Below are positions 20,358 through 29,505 of a stretch of 50,512 nucleotides of DNA, one piece after another. The position numbers were made by a program, and so were the translations under genes. Position 1 is the stretch's first letter, and each line of letters opens with the position of its first letter. Below the pieces are notes generated by a model, which was given only the letters and a program-made list of their open reading frames with translations, did not search any database and was not told where the DNA came from. Source of the stretch: Oscillospiraceae bacterium (lineage in GTDB: Bacteria; Bacillota; Clostridia; Oscillospirales; Ruminococcaceae); contig JAFUWN010000101.1 of assembly GCA_017483465.1 (NCBI GenBank), positions 1-50,512 on the forward strand, written 5' to 3'.

Positions 20358-21509
20358 ATGAATCTGCAAGCTATTATTACGACCAACTGTATTGGATTTG
20401 CTCTGCTTATTATCCTGTTGATCAGCAGTCATCTTGTTCGGCAGAGACAGCAGCTCAGTGACAACATGTTTACAGCAATGATTATTCTCACAGCCTCAGC
20501 ATGTATAACAGAAATGCTGACGTTTATCTTCGACGGAAATACCTCATATGCATGGATTCGTACTTTGAATATGGCCGGTACTTCATGGCTTTATCTTGTA
20601 AATGTACTGGATTCTTATCTGTGGTGTATCTATGTGGAGTTAAGATTATATCATGATGTCCAGCGTACCAGGAGAAGAGGCCCTTTTATCGGAATTCCCA
20701 TGTTGATGGCTGTAATTGCCGTGATTCTGAACTGTAGTTATCAGTTTTTATTCAGTATCAATGAACAGAATGTGTATCAAAGAGAGATCGGAGGATATAT
20801 TTATTATACGCTGACGACAGGGTATCTGTTTTACAGTCTGGTGATCAGATGGCAGTATAACAGGAAATTCGGAAAAGACAGATTTTTCCCGATCTATATG
20901 TTTATCGCTCCGATTATACTGGGAGCAACCGCACAGTTTTTTATATACGGCATTTCCATCGGATGGTGCTGTACGGCAATCGGGCTTGTCAGCATTTATA
21001 TGAGTCTGCAAAATGAGCTGTCTTATATCGACCCGCTGACTAAGCTCTATAACCGGAATTATCTGGATCATATGCTGAATCATATCAGCCGGAAAGAAAT
21101 CACAGCCGGCGGTATCATGATTGATCTGGATTATTTCAAATCCATCAATGATCAGTATGGACATACAGTCGGTGATGAAGCCCTTGTGGAAGCGGCACGG
21201 ATTATCCGGCTTTCCATACCGGAAAAGGCATTGCCTGTACGGTTTGCCGGAGATGAATTTATTATTCTCATCCGGAACGGTGAGGAAGAAACATTATTGC
21301 AGATCGAAGAAACTCTCAGAGAAGGTGTAAAAAATTTCAATCAGACCAGTCAGAAACCGTATCAGCTATCCTTTTCGCTGGGGCATAGTGTACATCATCC
21401 GGAAACGCTGACAGATGCGTTTCTGAATGAAATGGATCATCATATGTATGAAGAAAAAAATAAAAAGCATTGCCGTTCTTCGAGAAATACAGCAAAAATG
21501 CCTGCATGA
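20358..21509 (+). CDS. Membrane diguanylate cyclase with AGDEF active site
   Basis: 383 aa; ATG 20358 has CGGAGGT 7 bases upstream. Six or seven transmembrane helices (about 7-215) form a sensory module, followed by a GGDEF domain (about 222-375): DPLTKLYNRNYLDHML, GGIMIDLDYFKSINDQYGHTVGDEAL, and RFAGDEFIIL at 294-304. The signature is AGDEF rather than GGDEF; the first Gly-to-Ala variant is known in active cyclases. No RxxD inhibitory site is visible before the signature. It probably makes c-di-GMP from two GTP in response to a membrane signal. The stop codon lies inside the terminator hairpin. Confidence 0.9.
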   Translation: MNLQAIITTNCIGFALLIILLISSHLVRQRQQLSDNMFTAMIILTASACITEMLTFIFDGNTSYAWIRTLNMAGTSWLYLVNVLDSYLWCIYVELRLYHDVQRTRRRGPFIGIPMLMAVIAVILNCSYQFLFSINEQNVYQREIGGYIYYTLTTGYLFYSLVIRWQYNRKFGKDRFFPIYMFIAPIILGATAQFFIYGISIGWCCTAIGLVSIYMSLQNELSYIDPLTKLYNRNYLDHMLNHISRKEITAGGIMIDLDYFKSINDQYGHTVGDEALVEAARIIRLSIPEKALPVRFAGDEFIILIRNGEEETLLQIEETLREGVKNFNQTSQKPYQLSFSLGHSVHHPETLTDAFLNEMDHHMYEEKNKKHCRSSRNTAKMPA

Positions 21510-21528
21510 GCATTATGCAGGCAGATTT
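21499..21528. terminator. Bidirectional terminator
   Basis: 9-bp stem TGCCTGCAT / ATGCAGGCA with loop GAGCATT. GATTTTAG follows on plus, TTTTTGC on minus. It ends the GGDEF gene and the convergent acyltransferase operon. Confidence 0.85.
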
Positions 21529-21531
21529 TAG

Positions 21532-22617
21532 TTATTCTAAAATAATCCAGTCTTCAGCAAGCAGATCTTCCTGTGAAGGCTTCCAGGCAACAAGCTTGTC
21601 ATCCGCTGTTTTCATGGAAATCTGCATTTCTGTACCGGAAGAATCAATCCGGAGCTGAATTTCGGTATTTCCCCATGCAGTACGGGTCACAATATGATTT
21701 TCTTTCAGAGCACTGACAGCCTCGCTGAAAGAAACGAGAGTTTCTGTATCGGGAACGCTTTCTTCTGTGATGGTCTGAGTGCAGAGCCAGTCTGTCCAGC
21801 GGGCATAGTCATAGCCGGAAATATGGCTTCCGTCTCCGCTGTAATCTGCGGAAAGATAGCCGTTTTCGTCATCGAACAGAGGATTGACATCAATATAGAA
21901 ACTGTTCACACCGTCAGTCAGATTTTTAATATACTCGTTGGCCTGATTCAGATCGGCATTGCTGATACTGCTGCTTTCTTCAGAAAAAGTCTGTGTAATA
22001 TGCAGGTTTGCCATCATGAAAATCAAGGCATCCGGAGCTTCTTCCTGAATCATATTGTATAATTCCTGAATATGCGTACCAAATTCTTCCACACCGAATG
22101 CGATTTCATTCAGGCCGAGCATGACATAGATTTTTCCGTATTCGTTTTCAGAAAGCACTTCTCTGAGGGTACTGCCGTCTATTGTTTCACCGTCCAGAAT
22201 CTGATAGGCTGCCAGACCGCCGGTACAAAAATAATCTGCATTCGGAAGATTTCCGTAATTGCAAAGCCCGACAGTACGGGAATCACCGATAAACAGAGCA
22301 TCATCAAAATAAGACGGTTCACTGGTGACAAATCTGAGCGGCAGAGGTTCGGCAGGTTCGGGAACAGTTTCTGTAAGCAGTTCTGAATCTTGTTCCGGAA
22401 GTTCCGGAGCAGTTGTTTCGGTTTCCGGAGCGGTTTCTGTTTCTGCAGGTTCTTCGCTGACAGCAGCAGCCTGCGGCTTGTGACTGTTCCGGAGTTGGCT
22501 GAGCATAAACGGAGCAGAAATCAGATAGGCAATGCCAAACAGAAATGTAAAGCAATATCTTCTGATTTTATGGAGAGTCAGGCCTTTTTTGCGTTTTGAT
22601 CTGACTTGTTTTTTCAT
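21532..22617 (-). CDS. Membrane-anchored SGNH hydrolase/acyltransferase with C-terminal DUF2829 (Tad2-like) domain
   Basis: 361 aa. A very basic N-terminus (MKKQVRSKRKKG), one membrane helix (about 21-41), a Glu/Thr/Pro linker (51-92), and an SGNH domain (about 95-285) with Ser113 in IGDSR, Asn170 in GLNE and Asp262/His265 in DGSH, all catalytic blocks present. Residues about 297-361 match DUF2829: FSEAVSALKENHIVTRTAWG ... WKPSQEDLLAEDW. DUF2829 is the domain of phage Tad2 anti-Thoeris proteins that bind a cyclic ADP-ribose signal. An extracellular copy on an SGNH enzyme is unusual. ATGA overlap with the upstream paralog; last gene of the MBOAT operon, so probably moves acyl groups on an outer glycan. 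Confidence 0.8.
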   Translation of the reverse strand: MKKQVRSKRKKGLTLHKIRRYCFTFLFGIAYLISAPFMLSQLRNSHKPQAAAVSEEPAETETAPETETTAPELPEQDSELLTETVPEPAEPLPLRFVTSEPSYFDDALFIGDSRTVGLCNYGNLPNADYFCTGGLAAYQILDGETIDGSTLREVLSENEYGKIYVMLGLNEIAFGVEEFGTHIQELYNMIQEEAPDALIFMMANLHITQTFSEESSSISNADLNQANEYIKNLTDGVNSFYIDVNPLFDDENGYLSADYSGDGSHISGYDYARWTDWLCTQTITEESVPDTETLVSFSEAVSALKENHIVTRTAWGNTEIQLRIDSSGTEMQISMKTADDKLVAWKPSQEDLLAEDWIILE

Positions 22618-23708
22618 GAAGCATCACCGTTTCCGGTCAGGGAAACCCAGTCCTCGGCGAGCATATCTTCCTGTGAGGCAGTCCACGGAATGATTCTGTT
22701 ATCCGAAGTTTTCATTTCAATGGCATCAGAACTGCCGAGCTGAATCCAGACTTCTTCTCCCCAGTCTTTTCGGGAAAGATGACCGCCCTGTTTGAGAATT
22801 TCCACAGCCTGACCGAAATCAATTTCCGGCAGGGGAGCGGATTCATAGCTTTTTTCCGTAATAGTATGCTGACAGAGCCAGTCTGACCATTCCGGATAGT
22901 AAGTTGCATACGGATGAACACCATCGCCGGAGGCATCTGCCGGCAGACAGCCGTCTTCATCATCGAACAGAGGATTAATATCCAGATAGATGATATTTTT
23001 TCCGTCTGTCATTTCTTCGATTGCCTGATTGATGATATTCAGCCGTTCATTGCTTTCCGAGGGATTTTCAATAGAAGATTCCCAGGAAACATGCAGATTC
23101 GACATCAGATAGATCAGGGCATCGGGAGCACCTTCACGGACTTCATCCAGGAGTTCATTCATATTGATTCTGAAACTTTCGGCACTGTCGGCACATTCAT
23201 TCAGACCGAGCATAATATAGATTTTACTGTAATCACGATCATAGAATTTTCCGGCGAGGGTTTCACCCTCGACATACTTACCGCCCGTGACTTTATAAGT
23301 AGAAAGTCCGACCGCACAGAGATAATCTGCATTATCCAGTGTACCGTAATCACGGAGATCTTCCATTCTGGAATCACCGATAAACAGAGCATCATCAAAA
23401 TAGGACGGATCGCTTTCGACAAAGACAAGACCTGCTTTGGTTTTTTCCCGGGTATCGGGTTCGGTTTCAGATTCTGTTTCTGTTTCGGATTCCGTTTCAG
23501 AAAGTTCTGAACTTTCTGTTTCTTCCGGAGACTGAATTTCTTCTATGCTTTCAGCAACAGTTTCTGAGGGTTCTTCATATTTGGCATAGGCTTTGGAGAC
23601 TCTGGCATCCGGCGAGCCTTTCAGAACCTGACCGATAATCAGGGGGGAAGAAATCAGAAAACTGATACATAAAAGACCTGTATAGAGATATTTTGCATTT
23701 TTTCGCAT
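22614..23708 (-). CDS. Second SGNH protein with C-terminal DUF2829 (Tad2-like) domain
   Basis: 364 aa, a paralog of the next gene with the same layout: membrane helix about 9-28, acidic Ser/Glu/Thr linker 45-90, SGNH domain with Ser113, Asn170, Asp262 and His265 at identical positions, and DUF2829 at about 298-356 (FGQAVEILKQGGHLSRKDWG ... PWTASQEDMLAEDW). Weak GAGG ribosome site before ATG 23708. It sits between the MBOAT gene and the second SGNH gene, so the two probably form a relay for extracytoplasmic acyl transfer, as DltB-DltD or AlgI-AlgJ/X do. Divergence outside the catalytic blocks suggests distinct acceptors. Confidence 0.8.
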   Translation of the reverse strand: MRKNAKYLYTGLLCISFLISSPLIIGQVLKGSPDARVSKAYAKYEEPSETVAESIEEIQSPEETESSELSETESETETESETEPDTREKTKAGLVFVESDPSYFDDALFIGDSRMEDLRDYGTLDNADYLCAVGLSTYKVTGGKYVEGETLAGKFYDRDYSKIYIMLGLNECADSAESFRINMNELLDEVREGAPDALIYLMSNLHVSWESSIENPSESNERLNIINQAIEEMTDGKNIIYLDINPLFDDEDGCLPADASGDGVHPYATYYPEWSDWLCQHTITEKSYESAPLPEIDFGQAVEILKQGGHLSRKDWGEEVWIQLGSSDAIEMKTSDNRIIPWTASQEDMLAEDWVSLTGNGDAS

Positions 23709-23776: not shown

Positions 23777-25186
23777 TTAAAATCTGAAATACAAAAACGG
23801 ATCGTTCAGCCCTTGATACATACAGTAGACACAGGCTGCAAATACCGCAAGACAGCCGATTGCTGTCAGAACAGGCTTATCTTTCAGTTTCGGAGCGAGC
23901 ATTTGCGGCAGAGGTGTACAGAACAGGATTGCCGCAAGGAAATATTTCCAGTAAGTATGCAGGGATTTGAGATAATCTCCGTCCATGATACGGCCGGTTT
24001 CATGCGGCAGAAACGGAAATAATCTGGTGAAAAACACGCCCAGAGAATGAATATCCGTAATGGCAAAAATCGTCCATGAAACAGGAATCAGAAACAGCAT
24101 ATAACAATGACCGAGAATTTTATGCTGATTTAAATATTTTCCTGTGAATAATTTTTCGCTCATCAGGATGACAAATAAAAACAAACCCCATAAGATAAAA
24201 TTCCAGCTTGCACCGTGCCAGAAGCCTGTCAGAAACCAGACAATAAAAATATTCCGGATTGTCTTAAATTTGCCTTTTCGGTTGCCGCCCAGAGGAATAT
24301 AAATATAATTCCGGAACCAGGAACCGAGTGTCATATGCCATCTTCTCCAGAATTCCGTCATAGTCAGAGAAAGATAAGGCTGATTGAAATTCTGCGGAAG
24401 ATGAAAACCCATCATCAGGCCTAAGCCGATGGCCATCAGGGAATAGCCGTAGAAATCAAAATATAACTGGAAAGAATAGGCTGCAATACTCAGCCATGCC
24501 AGAGGTGTGGAAATGCTCTTGAAACCGATTGTTCCAATATCTCTCCAGAGACCGCCCAGCTGATTGGCAATCAGGATTTTAAATCCCAGTCCGGCCGTAA
24601 AAATCTTGAGGCCTTTATCAATATGATATAAAGAATGTTTTCTGTCTTTGAGTTCTTCGGCTACTGTGGAATAAGTTACAATAGGCCCTGCAATCAGCTG
24701 CGGAAACATGGAGATATAAGCTCCGTAATCAATCAGATTTTTCGAGGCCTTTGCATTTTTCCGGTAGACATCGACCAGATAGGAAAGATTCTGGAATGTA
24801 TAGAAACTGATACCGATCGGCAGAATAATATTTCGCTCCGGTAAATCAAGATGAAAGGCATGGTTCAGATTTGTACTGAAAAATCCGGAATATTTGAAGA
24901 ACAATAACCAGAATACGTTATAGACAATTCCCAGAATCAGAAGCAGTTTAGAATGCTTCTGAGAATCCTGAATCAGTCTGCCAAGCAGATAATTGACAAG
25001 AATCGTCTGTATAAACAGGGGAATATAAATCCATGTTTTCGGGGTTTCCAGTACGCCAATGCTGTAAAATACAATACTCCCCAGCAGAATTGCGAGATTT
25101 TTCAGCCGGATATTCGGCATCAGGGCATAGCAGATAAAAAACACCGGCAAGAAAATAAAAATAAACTCCAGGCTGCTGAAAACCAA
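23777..25186 (-). CDS. MBOAT-family membrane O-acyltransferase (AlgI/DltB/PatA-like)
   Basis: 469 aa, about 11 transmembrane helices. Family motifs: FYTFQNLSYLVDVYRK, MFPQLIAGPI, FQLYFDFYGYSLMAIGLGLMMGF, NFNQPY...FWRRWHMTLGSWFRNYIYIPLGGNRKG and the catalytic-histidine segment LTGFWHGASWNFILWG (His near 320). It passes an acyl group (often acetyl) from a cytoplasmic donor across the membrane to a partner SGNH protein. The start is TTG 25186 after GGAGTG (9 bases); no ATG fits. First gene of a three-gene operon with two SGNH genes. The acceptor, wall polymer or capsule, is unknown. Confidence 0.93.
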   Translation of the reverse strand: MVFSSLEFIFIFLPVFFICYALMPNIRLKNLAILLGSIVFYSIGVLETPKTWIYIPLFIQTILVNYLLGRLIQDSQKHSKLLLILGIVYNVFWLLFFKYSGFFSTNLNHAFHLDLPERNIILPIGISFYTFQNLSYLVDVYRKNAKASKNLIDYGAYISMFPQLIAGPIVTYSTVAEELKDRKHSLYHIDKGLKIFTAGLGFKILIANQLGGLWRDIGTIGFKSISTPLAWLSIAAYSFQLYFDFYGYSLMAIGLGLMMGFHLPQNFNQPYLSLTMTEFWRRWHMTLGSWFRNYIYIPLGGNRKGKFKTIRNIFIVWFLTGFWHGASWNFILWGLFLFVILMSEKLFTGKYLNQHKILGHCYMLFLIPVSWTIFAITDIHSLGVFFTRLFPFLPHETGRIMDGDYLKSLHTYWKYFLAAILFCTPLPQMLAPKLKDKPVLTAIGCLAVFAACVYCMYQGLNDPFLYFRF

Positions 25187-25237: not shown

Positions 25238-25266
25238 ATTATGACACAAATCCGGAAAAAAGTCAA
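25238..25266 (-). promoter_or_regulatory. Promoter of the MBOAT-SGNH operon
   Basis: Minus strand TTGACT (25261-25266), 17-base spacer, CATAAT (25238-25243). Confidence 0.75.
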
Positions 25267-25334: not shown

Positions 25335-25361
25335 AAAAACCTGTCCTCCGGAGAGGACAGG
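25335..25361 (-). terminator. Terminator of the 345-aa LRR-dockerin gene
   Basis: 9-bp stem CCTGTCCTC / GAGGACAGG with loop CGGA, followed on the minus strand by TTTTTTG. Confidence 0.85.
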
Positions 25362-25371
25362 GCGGTTTCTG

Positions 25372-26409
25372 TCAGGCAAGTTCGGGAATCAGACCGACAA
25401 TATATTTCAGAATCGTAAGAGCTTCTTCGGAATCGGGCTTGCCGTTGCCGTTGAAATCAATCGCTTTGAGAGAATTTTCGGAGAGGGTTTCTTTTCCCAT
25501 GACAGCTTTGTTGAGAGTGATGACATCCAGAATATCAATTTTCTGATTGCCGTCAGCATCGCCCTGCTGATATGCTTCTGATGTTTCCGGAGCAGAGCCG
25601 ATTACTTCAAAATTTCGGCCGTATTTTTCAGCATAAGCCAAAGCTGTCGAATTTTCATAGCCGTAAATTGTGCCGTTAAACTCCGCTTTTTCCAGTTCGG
25701 CATCATAGGCATTGCAGATAGTGAGCGAAGTATCAGAAATTTCACAGTCCGGATTTTGAATTGTAACAGAGGACAGGCTCGTACAGTAGACAAATGCATA
25801 ATCTCCGATCGTGGTAACACTGTCGGGAATTGTAACAGAGATCAGGCTTGTACAGCTGGCAAATGCACAGAGTCCAATATCAGTCACACTATCAGGAATT
25901 GTGAAAGAAGTCAGGCCTGTACAGCCCGAAAATGTAAAATCTTTGATACTGGTGATACTGTCGGGAAGCGTGACAGAAGTTAATTTTTCACAGTCGCAAA
26001 ATGCACGGTCTCCGATGCTGGCAACACTGTTCGGAATTATGACAGAAGTCAGACTTGTACATTGATAAAATGCATCGAATCCGATATTGGTGATACTGTC
26101 AGGAAGCATAACAGATTTCAGATTTGTACAAAAAGAAAATGTACATTCTTGAATGCCTGTAACAGGAAGACCCTCAATTTCTGCCGGAATCACAATTTCT
26201 CCCTCCAGGTCTTCTGTATAACCGGAAATTTCAATATGATCTGCATATTTATAGTATGTCAGATTTTCATAAATACCTTCTGTATATTCTTCATATTCTT
26301 CTTCGGCAGATGCCTGAATCACAGCGATTTCCTGAGCCGGAAGAAACGGTATGACTGTACCCATCATACAAAAGGCAGAAACAACAGCCAGCATTTTTTT
26401 CAAGTTCAT
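25372..26409 (-). CDS. Secreted BspA-like leucine-rich-repeat protein with dockerin
   Basis: 345 aa. Signal peptide about 1-35 (MNLKKMLAVVSAFCMMGTVIPFLPAQ). A conserved N-terminal cap (EEYEEYTEGIYENLTYYKYADHIEISGYT), then about six 23-aa LRR_5 repeats of the form SITNIGFDAFYQCTSLTSVIIP (about 85-225), a closing strand (YGYENSTALAYAEKYG), and a dockerin (about 280-343: GDADGNQKIDILDV and DFNGNGKPDSEEAL). Non-catalytic; probably a binding or structural component attached to a cellulosome or surface cohesin. AAGGAG precedes the ATG. A 3'-ward paralog pair lies at 28.0-30.6 kb. The upstream region carries an unusual heptamer array. Confidence 0.9.
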   Translation of the reverse strand: MNLKKMLAVVSAFCMMGTVIPFLPAQEIAVIQASAEEEYEEYTEGIYENLTYYKYADHIEISGYTEDLEGEIVIPAEIEGLPVTGIQECTFSFCTNLKSVMLPDSITNIGFDAFYQCTSLTSVIIPNSVASIGDRAFCDCEKLTSVTLPDSITSIKDFTFSGCTGLTSFTIPDSVTDIGLCAFASCTSLISVTIPDSVTTIGDYAFVYCTSLSSVTIQNPDCEISDTSLTICNAYDAELEKAEFNGTIYGYENSTALAYAEKYGRNFEVIGSAPETSEAYQQGDADGNQKIDILDVITLNKAVMGKETLSENSLKAIDFNGNGKPDSEEALTILKYIVGLIPELA

Positions 26410-28011: not shown

Positions 28012-29469
28012 TTATAATGCCTCAATCAGTCCGGTGATATATTTTAAAATCATCAGAGATTCTTCTGAATCCGGCTTGCCGTTCTGATTGAAATCAATTG
28101 CTTTGATCTGATTTTCTGTCAGAGTTTCTTTTCCTAAGATTGCCCTGTTGAGCGTGATGACATCCAGAATATCTACTTTTCCGGAAAGATCGGCATCGCC
28201 GGAAAGAAATTCTTCTGCCCGGGATTCTGTTTCCGGTTCTGAGCCGATCACTTCAAATTGATAGCCGTATTTTTCGGCATAGGCCTGTGCTGTCGAATTT
28301 TCATAGCCGTAAATAACGGCTTGCTCCGGAAGTGTATATTTATTTTCTATAATTTCACAGTCGGGATTTTCAATCCTGATAGAAAGTAAATGACTGCAGT
28401 CCCGAAAAGCATGAAATGCAATTCCAGTTACAGTTTCTGGTATTACATATTCCGTTTGTTCGTTTCCGGAAGGAAAACGAAGCAGAACAGTCTGTTCCTT
28501 ATTAAACAAAACACCGTCTTTGCTGGAAAAAACTGTATTCTCTTCATCTACATCAATAGAGACTGCCGCAGAACAGCCTTTAAGAAATCCGCTTGCAATA
28601 CTTGTTACACCTTTAGGAATAAAAACAGAAGTTAAAGCAGTACAGTCATCCAATGCCCATGATTCGATACTGATAAGAGTATCCGGCAGAGTAATAGAAG
28701 TCAATGATGAACATTCATAAAATGTATAAGGCAGAATGCAGGTAACACCCTCGGGAACAGCAATGGAAGTTAAAGCAGAACAGCCATAAAATGCTTCTTC
28801 TCCAATATTTGTAATGCTATCCGGAAGATTAACAGAAGTCAGGGAACTACAGTTGGAAAATGCTCCGCCTCCAATACTTGTTATGCCATCCGGAAGTGTT
28901 ACAGAAATTATATCAGAACAGTAATAAAATGCAGTTGCACTGATTGCGGTTACTCCCTCCGGAACAATAATTTCTCCTTTGCAGAGTGCTCCGTCTATTA
29001 AAATATGATTGATGATGACAAACGGATTTTCTTCCTGCTTTTGATACAGCCAAGGCGTATAATCAAATACATACCATCCAAAGCTCTGAACACTTTCCGG
29101 AATCGTAACAGAAGTCAGTGAAGTACAGCCAGAAAATGCCCTATTTCCGATTGTGGTTACACCATCCGGAATGATAACAGAAGTTAGCGAATAGAAGTTT
29201 GAAAATGCCAATGTTCCAATGCTCGTGACAGGCAGACCGTCAATTTCTGCCGGAATTGTAATTTCATTTTCTGCTTCATCCGTATAGCCGGAAATTTCAA
29301 TATAATCGGCATATTTTTTATATACTAAACTTCCATAGACATCTTCTGTATAGTCTTCATATTCTTCTTCAGCAGATGCCTGAATTACAGTTGTTTCCTG
29401 AACAGGAAGCCTCGGCACGGAAACAGTCAGCATTGTAAATGCTCCTAAAATAGCCAATATTTTTTTCAT
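28012..29469 (-). CDS. Secreted BspA-like leucine-rich-repeat protein with dockerin (485 aa)
   Basis: Start ATG 29469 (AAAGGG 10 bases upstream) rather than the GTG three codons earlier. Signal peptide, then the same cap as the 25.4-kb paralog (EEEYEDYTEDVYGSLVYKKYADYIEISGYT), about ten LRR_5 repeats interrupted near residues 130-160 by a WLYQKQEENPFVIINHILIDG segment typical of BspA-like proteins, and a C-terminal dockerin (GDADLSGKVDILDV, DFNQNGKPDSEESL). Presumed cellulosome- or surface-attached binding protein. Last gene of the long minus-strand series; an AT-rich gap with TATAAT-like sequence (29470-29505) may give it its own promoter. Its dockerin DNA is almost identical to that of the next gene upstream. 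Confidence 0.9.
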   Translation of the reverse strand: MKKILAILGAFTMLTVSVPRLPVQETTVIQASAEEEYEDYTEDVYGSLVYKKYADYIEISGYTDEAENEITIPAEIDGLPVTSIGTLAFSNFYSLTSVIIPDGVTTIGNRAFSGCTSLTSVTIPESVQSFGWYVFDYTPWLYQKQEENPFVIINHILIDGALCKGEIIVPEGVTAISATAFYYCSDIISVTLPDGITSIGGGAFSNCSSLTSVNLPDSITNIGEEAFYGCSALTSIAVPEGVTCILPYTFYECSSLTSITLPDTLISIESWALDDCTALTSVFIPKGVTSIASGFLKGCSAAVSIDVDEENTVFSSKDGVLFNKEQTVLLRFPSGNEQTEYVIPETVTGIAFHAFRDCSHLLSIRIENPDCEIIENKYTLPEQAVIYGYENSTAQAYAEKYGYQFEVIGSEPETESRAEEFLSGDADLSGKVDILDVITLNRAILGKETLTENQIKAIDFNQNGKPDSEESLMILKYITGLIEAL

Positions 29470-29505
29470 GCGATTCACACCCTTTATATTATATATTATA
29501 ATATG

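Follow-up and report, generated by a model that had tools for sequence, protein, structure and literature searches.

Tad2-like domains on two neighbouring SGNH proteins of an MBOAT acyltransferase locus: a candidate role for a phage fold outside the membrane

Introduction

The closest described systems are phage Tad2 on the one hand and envelope acyltransferases on the other. Phage Tad2 is a homotetramer, and a review (PMC12043709) assigns its dimer contacts to helix alpha2 and sheet beta2, its gcADPR pocket to loops beta1-beta2, beta3-beta4, and beta4-alpha3 together with strand beta4 and helix alpha3, and its cyclic-dinucleotide site to the beta2-beta5 insertion. Pfam today names the corresponding family, PF11195 (DUF2829), Thoeris anti-defense, and phage proteins with a match appear in sequence records as Tad2, anti-CRISPR, or DUF2829 protein. 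Among acyltransferases, a 2025 paper (PMC12148441) reports that PatA acetylates the tyrosine of its FXYXXF motif, which serves as its acyl carrier, and that PatB accepts the acetyl group from the acetylated motif peptide. AlgX, in turn, is an SGNH protein with a C-terminal carbohydrate-binding module (CBM), and its system also needs a second SGNH protein (PMC4148444).

Here, we describe a locus in which these two worlds meet. The window, by which we mean the whole 50,512-nucleotide stretch that was analysed, is contig G000:C82 of a 2.9 Mb Oscillospiraceae genome. A first-pass annotation, made from the letters alone, had claimed that two SGNH proteins encoded in it end in a DUF2829 domain. A small set of Ruminococcus-like gut bacteria carries the fusion, and in them the domain apparently has a new job outside the cell.

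Gene Layout and Acyl Chemistry

The open reading frames of the window include a three-gene unit on the minus strand, consisting of MBOAT, SGNH-A, and SGNH-B (Table 1). The start of SGNH-B overlaps the stop of SGNH-A (ATGA), an arrangement of four bases that is also present in G035 and G017, and the spacing between A and B ranges from -4 to +8 bases across the six genomes with the fusion. Given this overlap, the promoter-like site before MBOAT, and the flanking terminator-like stems, the unit looks like a single transcript. Matches of these kinds exceed those in shuffled sequences (17 promoter-like sites on both strands of the stretch versus a mean of 8.4, and 11 terminator-like stem-loops versus a mean of 3.5), yet they fall short of proof. 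The order MBOAT-A-B is kept in five of the six fusion genomes, namely those with contig coverage, with differing neighbours; the genes around the unit in G029 have matches in the window itself.

Table 1. Features of the MBOAT-SGNH unit in the window
Feature	Position	Strand	Basis
Terminator-like stem-loop after SGNH-B	21499..21523	-	consensus match only
SGNH-B, 361 aa, anchored SGNH protein with Tad2-like C-terminus	21532..22617	-	Pfam, catalytic residues, hydropathy
Tad2-like domain of SGNH-B	21541..21732	-	PF11195, 58.2 bits (profile search of genome)
SGNH-A, 364 aa, anchored SGNH protein with Tad2-like C-terminus	22614..23708	-	Pfam, catalytic residues, hydropathy
Tad2-like domain of SGNH-A	22644..22820	-	PF11195, 59.6 bits (profile search of genome)
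MBOAT O-acyltransferase, 469 aa, TTG start	23777..25186	-	PF03062, 94.7 bits; WHG histidine in sequence
FLYFRF, C-terminal FXYXXF acyl-shuttle motif of MBOAT	23780..23797	-	sequence; motif as described in PMC12148441
Promoter-like site TTGACT-17-CATAAT, TG ahead of second hexamer, upstream of MBOAT	25238..25266	-	consensus match only
Terminator-like stem-loop separating the MBOAT-SGNH unit from the preceding LRR/dockerin gene	25340..25361	-	consensus match only

Two other features of this genome may be mentioned here. Near the unit, a leucine-rich-repeat protein with a dockerin-like end is encoded at 25372-26409 of the window (Pfam), without a match in the stretches retrieved from G014, G017, and G035, and a further leucine-rich-repeat protein with a dockerin-like end can be seen by eye at 28012-29478. 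The genome also carries a second MBOAT gene (G000:C21:21232-22659), 41% identical to that of the window.

The first-pass annotation had the SGNH proteins encoded with an MBOAT, and the PF03062 match agrees with this. The WHG histidine is present in 75/75 MBOATs of the fetched loci, and the last 14 residues hold F-x-Y-x-x-[FY] in all of them, two of the 75 being the same locus fetched twice; the LTA_dltB model reaches 156 bits on the window's MBOAT, under its cut-off of 375. An MBOAT with a catalytic-type histidine and a C-terminal FXYXXF motif thus stands beside SGNH proteins, and on account of the histidine and the motif we consider it very probable that the products of the three genes form an MBOAT-SGNH acyltransferase acting on an envelope polymer. 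In such a system, the MBOAT would draw an acyl group from cytoplasmic acyl-CoA and place it on the tyrosine of the FLYFRF motif at its own C-terminus; Ser113 of the anchored SGNH proteins would then accept the group for delivery to an acceptor polymer outside the membrane. We infer this route, as well as the topology, from known families.

Both SGNH proteins match Lipase_GDSL_2 (PF13472), with 48.5 and 54.4 bits against a cut-off of 32.9, and have the serine, glycine, asparagine, and Asp-x-x-His pair of the family (S113, G134, N170, D262, and H265). As the annotation had noticed, residues 113, 170, 262, and 265 are at identical positions in the two copies. In an alignment of 12 homologues, 11 with the Tad2-like domain and one without, the serine, aspartate, and histidine are kept in all 12 and N170 in 11. 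Each of the 12 also has just one strongly hydrophobic stretch, which lies close to the N-terminus (from residue 72 in one long gene model) and is preceded by net positive charge. This arrangement, judged by hydropathy only, predicts that the C-terminus is out, so that the catalytic and Tad2-like parts would both lie outside the membrane, where the annotation had also placed the domain.

Identity of the C-Terminal Domain

PF11195 matches residues 297-355 of SGNH-A (58.0 bits, E 1.4e-15) and 296-359 of SGNH-B (54.8 bits, E 1.4e-14), well above the Pfam cut-off of 25 and close to the 298-356 and 297-361 of the first-pass annotation, whose claim of a C-terminal DUF2829 domain on both proteins is thereby upheld. 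A single-sequence search of the PDB finds SPO1 Tad2 from either protein (E 4.6e-8 for SGNH-A and 6e-7 for SGNH-B), and a profile of the 12 fused domains finds SPO1 Tad2 at E 8.6e-18 and AcrIIA7 at E 3.6e-16. The conserved core, made up of RxxW, W73, and LAxDW, is present in 12/12 fused domains. By these sequence matches, both C-terminal domains are confirmed as genuine Tad2-like domains, and chance similarity is ruled out by the Pfam, single-sequence, and profile searches alike. A recent accidental fusion or an assembly artefact is likewise ruled out, as the fused pair occurs in six genomes, across which the Tad2 parts are 29-63% identical to the SGNH-B domain. The window's genome has a third Tad2-like gene elsewhere (G000:C76:3989-4216, L003), which is stand-alone and divergent.

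Distribution and History

A survey of SGNH-DUF2829 fusions beside MBOAT genes, which the annotation had suggested, finds the fused pair in 6 of the 38 genomes of the genus, the window's own included, and this is a lower bound because many of these genomes are incomplete. In all six, the domain is carried by two neighbouring genes, the first fused copy of G026 being cut by the contig end. PF11195 matches were found in 7 of 391 genomes of a class sample and 7 of 398 of a phylum sample, the window's own in both. Of the other PF11195 frames in these two samples, ten were read, and none is an SGNH fusion; four further matches lie in frames of 39-76 aa. The longest of the other frames (255 aa) appears by eye to consist of two Tad2-like repeats. 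In a family sample, the fused-domain profile matches 9 of 396 genomes, and frames longer than 221 aa occur solely in G000 and G014.

Loci of the SGNH family in named records mostly bear Ruminococcus labels. Among the best 80 of 433 loci with SGNH relatives, five are fused, with two Tad2-like domains each, and 68 combine an MBOAT with exactly one SGNH protein and no Tad2, some of these being near-copies of each other; two have the MBOAT only, two the SGNH only, and in three neither was detected. The underlying count also took in L041, which is the same locus as L125. Unfused SGNH proteins end shortly after the SGNH domain or in low-complexity tails, and all tails of 20 or more residues are of the latter type. 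On the SGNH tree, the MBOAT-SGNH units of L059 and L099, contigs with Alistipes labels, hardly differ from those of Ruminococcus, which points to mislabelling or mixing of metagenome bins.

In a rapidly built tree of 82 SGNH rows, A (5 rows, SH-aLRT 95) and B (6 rows, 97) each form one side of a branch, and a single branch (99) separates fused from single proteins; the root of this tree is not fixed, and one A row is long-branched. G034, from the same genus, has a single unfused SGNH protein that is placed among the singles. Since the unfused form is widespread and G034 falls among the singles, the simplest scenario for this unrooted tree is that the Tad2-like domain was gained once, followed by duplication and then by speciation. 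The same observations, with fused and single separated by one change, leave unsupported the possibility raised in the annotation that we are seeing the ancestral use of the fold. In a tree of 93 Tad2-like domains, built on a short alignment with several long branches and an unsettled bootstrap, the 12 fused domains form one side of a branch (95/89), and separate acquisitions by A and B are therefore unsupported. The best version of this tree does not keep A and B apart, but topologies that do so are not rejected (p-AU 0.215 and 0.252).

Relatives of the fused proteins were not found among the pattern stretches in viral contigs (0/56). Together with the neighbours in G029, which match the window's own genes, this leaves the idea of a prophage gene unsupported. 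A Tad2 sponge is carried by a phage or prophage and is cytoplasmic; the fused proteins differ in both respects, given the viral count and the C-terminus-out topology predicted from hydropathy in 12/12 homologues.

The Ligand Site

We aligned the 12 fused domains with 80 other Tad2-like domains (77 viral, two host stand-alone, and SPO1 Tad2), using SPO1 numbering and mapping positions to structural elements by sequence, not by coordinates. Several residues are shared: R22 is found in 79/80 of the others and 12/12 fused domains, W25 and W73 in all members of both sets, and D79 in 11/12 fused domains. The loop between them is not. G24 is present in 77/80 of the others versus 0/12 fused domains, N26 in 79/80 versus 2/12, G27 in 76/80 versus 2/12, and K28 in 69/80 versus 0/12, with glutamate in six of the fused domains. 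At the start of helix alpha3, T78 is present in 75/80 versus 0/12, and its place is taken by E78 in 12/12 fused domains and in 0/80 of the others, a set limited by the search pattern. In addition, SPO1 residues 40-52 are missing from 12/12 fused domains, and the beta2-beta5 insertion is deleted.

How the viral domains were collected affects some of these counts. The pattern of the first viral scan fixes D79, L81, A82, D84, and W85 and restricts position 78 to E, T, or K, so agreement of the viral rows at these positions is partly by construction, while the loop 22-28 lies outside the pattern. The patterns of the second and third scans included part of the loop, and the complete motif was therefore counted on the first scan alone, where GWNGK is present in 63 of 79 distinct domains, compared with 0/12 fused domains, and GWNG in 71. 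Conversely, the later scans used patterns without position 78, and their 122 distinct domains have T in 78, A in 33, S in 8, M in 2, N in 1, and E in none. By eye, the stand-alone cellular homologue of G631 also appears to have E at position 78.

The fused domains are thus domains with a remodelled ligand site, lacking both the GWNGK beta1-beta2 loop and the T78 of a Tad2 sponge, for which the pocket-bordering role rests on the loop description in PMC12043709, not on coordinates. With GWNGK lost, E78 in 12/12, and the beta2-beta5 insertion deleted, nucleotide sequestration by the fused domains is unlikely, and the nucleotide-like ligand that the annotation had considered becomes less likely. 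The glutamate at the start of helix alpha3 could alternatively be a neutral helix-capping change. These pocket changes are shared within a single clade and do not count as independent events, yet they have persisted through the duplication.

Selection was estimated with NG86 on six orthologue pairs, for which dS is near saturation and the values are consequently rough. The Tad2 part has a dN/dS of 0.20-0.43 (six pairs), compared with 0.055-0.17 for the SGNH part (five computable pairs) and 0.35-0.59 for the linker (three computable pairs). It is below the linker in 3/3 computable pairs and two to four times the SGNH part in the five computable pairs. Within these limits, the estimates agree with the annotation's view that the duplicated fusion is under selection, and they indicate that this selection is purifying.

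Possible Roles of the Domain

We lean towards the view that a domesticated phage sponge fold, now outside the membrane, with its nucleotide loop lost and an invariant glutamate gained, either pairs two acyltransferase subunits or grips a surface polymer, which would be a new, non-nucleotide function of the Tad2 fold. A domain whose fold is otherwise mostly found in phages would then have become a non-catalytic accessory module of an acyltransferase, as is suggested by the conservation of the MBOAT-A-B order amid differing neighbours and by a Tad2-part dN/dS below that of the linker. As for its job, the most likely single one, which we propose tentatively, is that it would keep the acceptor polymer, a glycan of the wall or surface, close to the SGNH active site, by analogy with the role proposed for the C-terminal CBM of AlgX; wall glycan is a candidate ligand. 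GH25 lysins with C-terminal Tad2-like domains in two lineages offer a lead in the same direction, but they fail to single out wall binding, as they keep the ligand motif and could be phage proteins of dual function whose Tad2 part acts as a sponge in the cytoplasm; we have accordingly downgraded them from proof of wall binding to a lead. The fact that the dN/dS of the Tad2 part is two to four times that of the SGNH part also counts against an acceptor-holding module.

The main rival, which we see as possible if less likely, is that the domain serves assembly: the Tad2-like domains of A and B would bind each other or themselves and so bring two SGNH subunits onto one MBOAT. Phage Tad2 protomers form a homotetramer (PMC12043709), and the association of the domain with two SGNH copies fits such pairing at least as well as acceptor holding, since domain-bearing genes come as two neighbours in 6/6 fusion genomes (the first one cut in G026), while the 68 loci with an MBOAT and an unfused SGNH among the best 80 of 433 yielded no second SGNH. 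The four-base overlap of A and B in the window, G035, and G017 suggests coupled translation, and R22, W25, and W73 were kept even though the ligand loop was lost. On the other hand, all fused loci belong to one clade, and the link may thus reflect one historical event; moreover, if helix alpha2 lies within the SPO1 residues 40-52 that are absent from 12/12 fused domains, as we would place it, the alpha2 contact is gone.

It is improbable that the domain is a passive spacer or relic, captured by chance and tolerated without ligand or partner. It does stand where relatives have low-complexity tails or none, with a dN/dS above that of the SGNH part, but all 12 known copies have kept it across a duplication and six genomes, its dN/dS is well under 1, and it has a new invariant residue in E78. 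More doubtful still is a sensor or scavenger of extracellular nucleotide signals that binds ADP-ribose-type or cyclic nucleotides and regulates acylation: despite the homology to a nucleotide-binding family and the retention of R22, W25, and W73 (12/12) and D79 (11/12), the fused domains have no GWNGK or K28, have E78 throughout, lack the insertion that binds cyclic dinucleotides (PMC12043709), and are predicted to lie outside the membrane, in genomes of which 0/6 have a ThsB_TIR match. With such matches in none of the six fusion genomes and in 5 of the 38 genomes of the genus, Thoeris seems irrelevant to the fused proteins.

If the accessory-module reading is confirmed, MBOAT-SGNH acyltransferases would have a new accessory domain, and a counter-defence fold would be seen to have turned to envelope biology. 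For annotation, the fused SGNH proteins are a counter-example to the PF11195 label, being predicted-exported host enzymes with an altered ligand site, and the lack of GWNGK, E at position 78, and an N-terminal anchor may serve as marks for sorting such proteins.

Comparison with Known Systems

Our literature search found no SGNH-Tad2 fusion and no Tad2-like domain together with a lysozyme, absences that are not firm, as most subscription papers lie outside its coverage. Our own viral scans gave 244 Tad2-bearing frames in 238 loci. In 126 of these frames the domain simply stands alone, and the majority of the others have fewer than 100 residues ahead of it, some of these extensions possibly being false starts. 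L139, L149, L151, L158, L160, L161, and others have similar N-terminal extensions some 75 residues long (YIGTK, PM, YN, GYISWSPK, AY), with no Pfam match in L149, the one scanned, and L353 and L357 appear by eye to have a helix-turn-helix N-terminus before the Tad2-like domain, with perhaps a degenerate second copy between.

The GH25-CW_7-Tad2 and GH25-Tad2 lysins resemble the fused SGNH proteins in having a Tad2-like C-terminus on a cell-wall enzyme, but they are phage-type muramidases in which the Tad2 ligand motif is kept or nearly kept (GWNGK or GWNGT, and SQTD or SQAD). The GH25-CW_7-Tad2 protein is encoded at the end of a 6.6 kb contig (L042:5501-6610, G027:C292), where an assembly error is possible; by eye, the contig end appears low-complexity and the other frames appear unlike those of phages. 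The GH25-Tad2 muramidase is nearly identical in three viral contigs (L211:2139-2972, L248:2386-3219, and L249:2386-3219), and in L211 and L249 it is directly followed by a small frame resembling a membrane protein by eye, holin-like by position only.

Phage Tad2 and AcrIIA7 (PF11195, DUF2829) share the RxxW, W, and LAxDW core with the fused domains, whose profile matches 8sme/8smf/8smg and 9kzr over the whole domain. In contrast to them, the fused version is the C-terminal part of a non-phage host enzyme that is predicted to be exported, and it has lost GWNGK, T78, and the beta2-beta5 insertion.

Among acyltransferases, the unfused Ruminococcus MBOAT-SGNH pairs (for example R. flavefaciens, L064, L066, and L096) belong to the same MBOAT and SGNH families, with 32-45% identity to SGNH-B over the best segment, but they have one SGNH protein with a low-complexity tail or none and without a Tad2-like domain. 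The peptidoglycan O-acetyltransferase PatA/PatB likewise combines an MBOAT that has the histidine and the FXYXXF shuttle with an anchored SGNH protein; it differs in having one SGNH protein and a known acceptor, and the available part of PMC12148441 mentions no Tad2-like domain. The AlgX system (PMC4148444) is alike in joining an SGNH protein with a C-terminal accessory domain to an MBOAT and a second SGNH protein; its accessory domain, however, is a carbohydrate-binding module, and the likeness to our locus is one of domain order and gene partners only.
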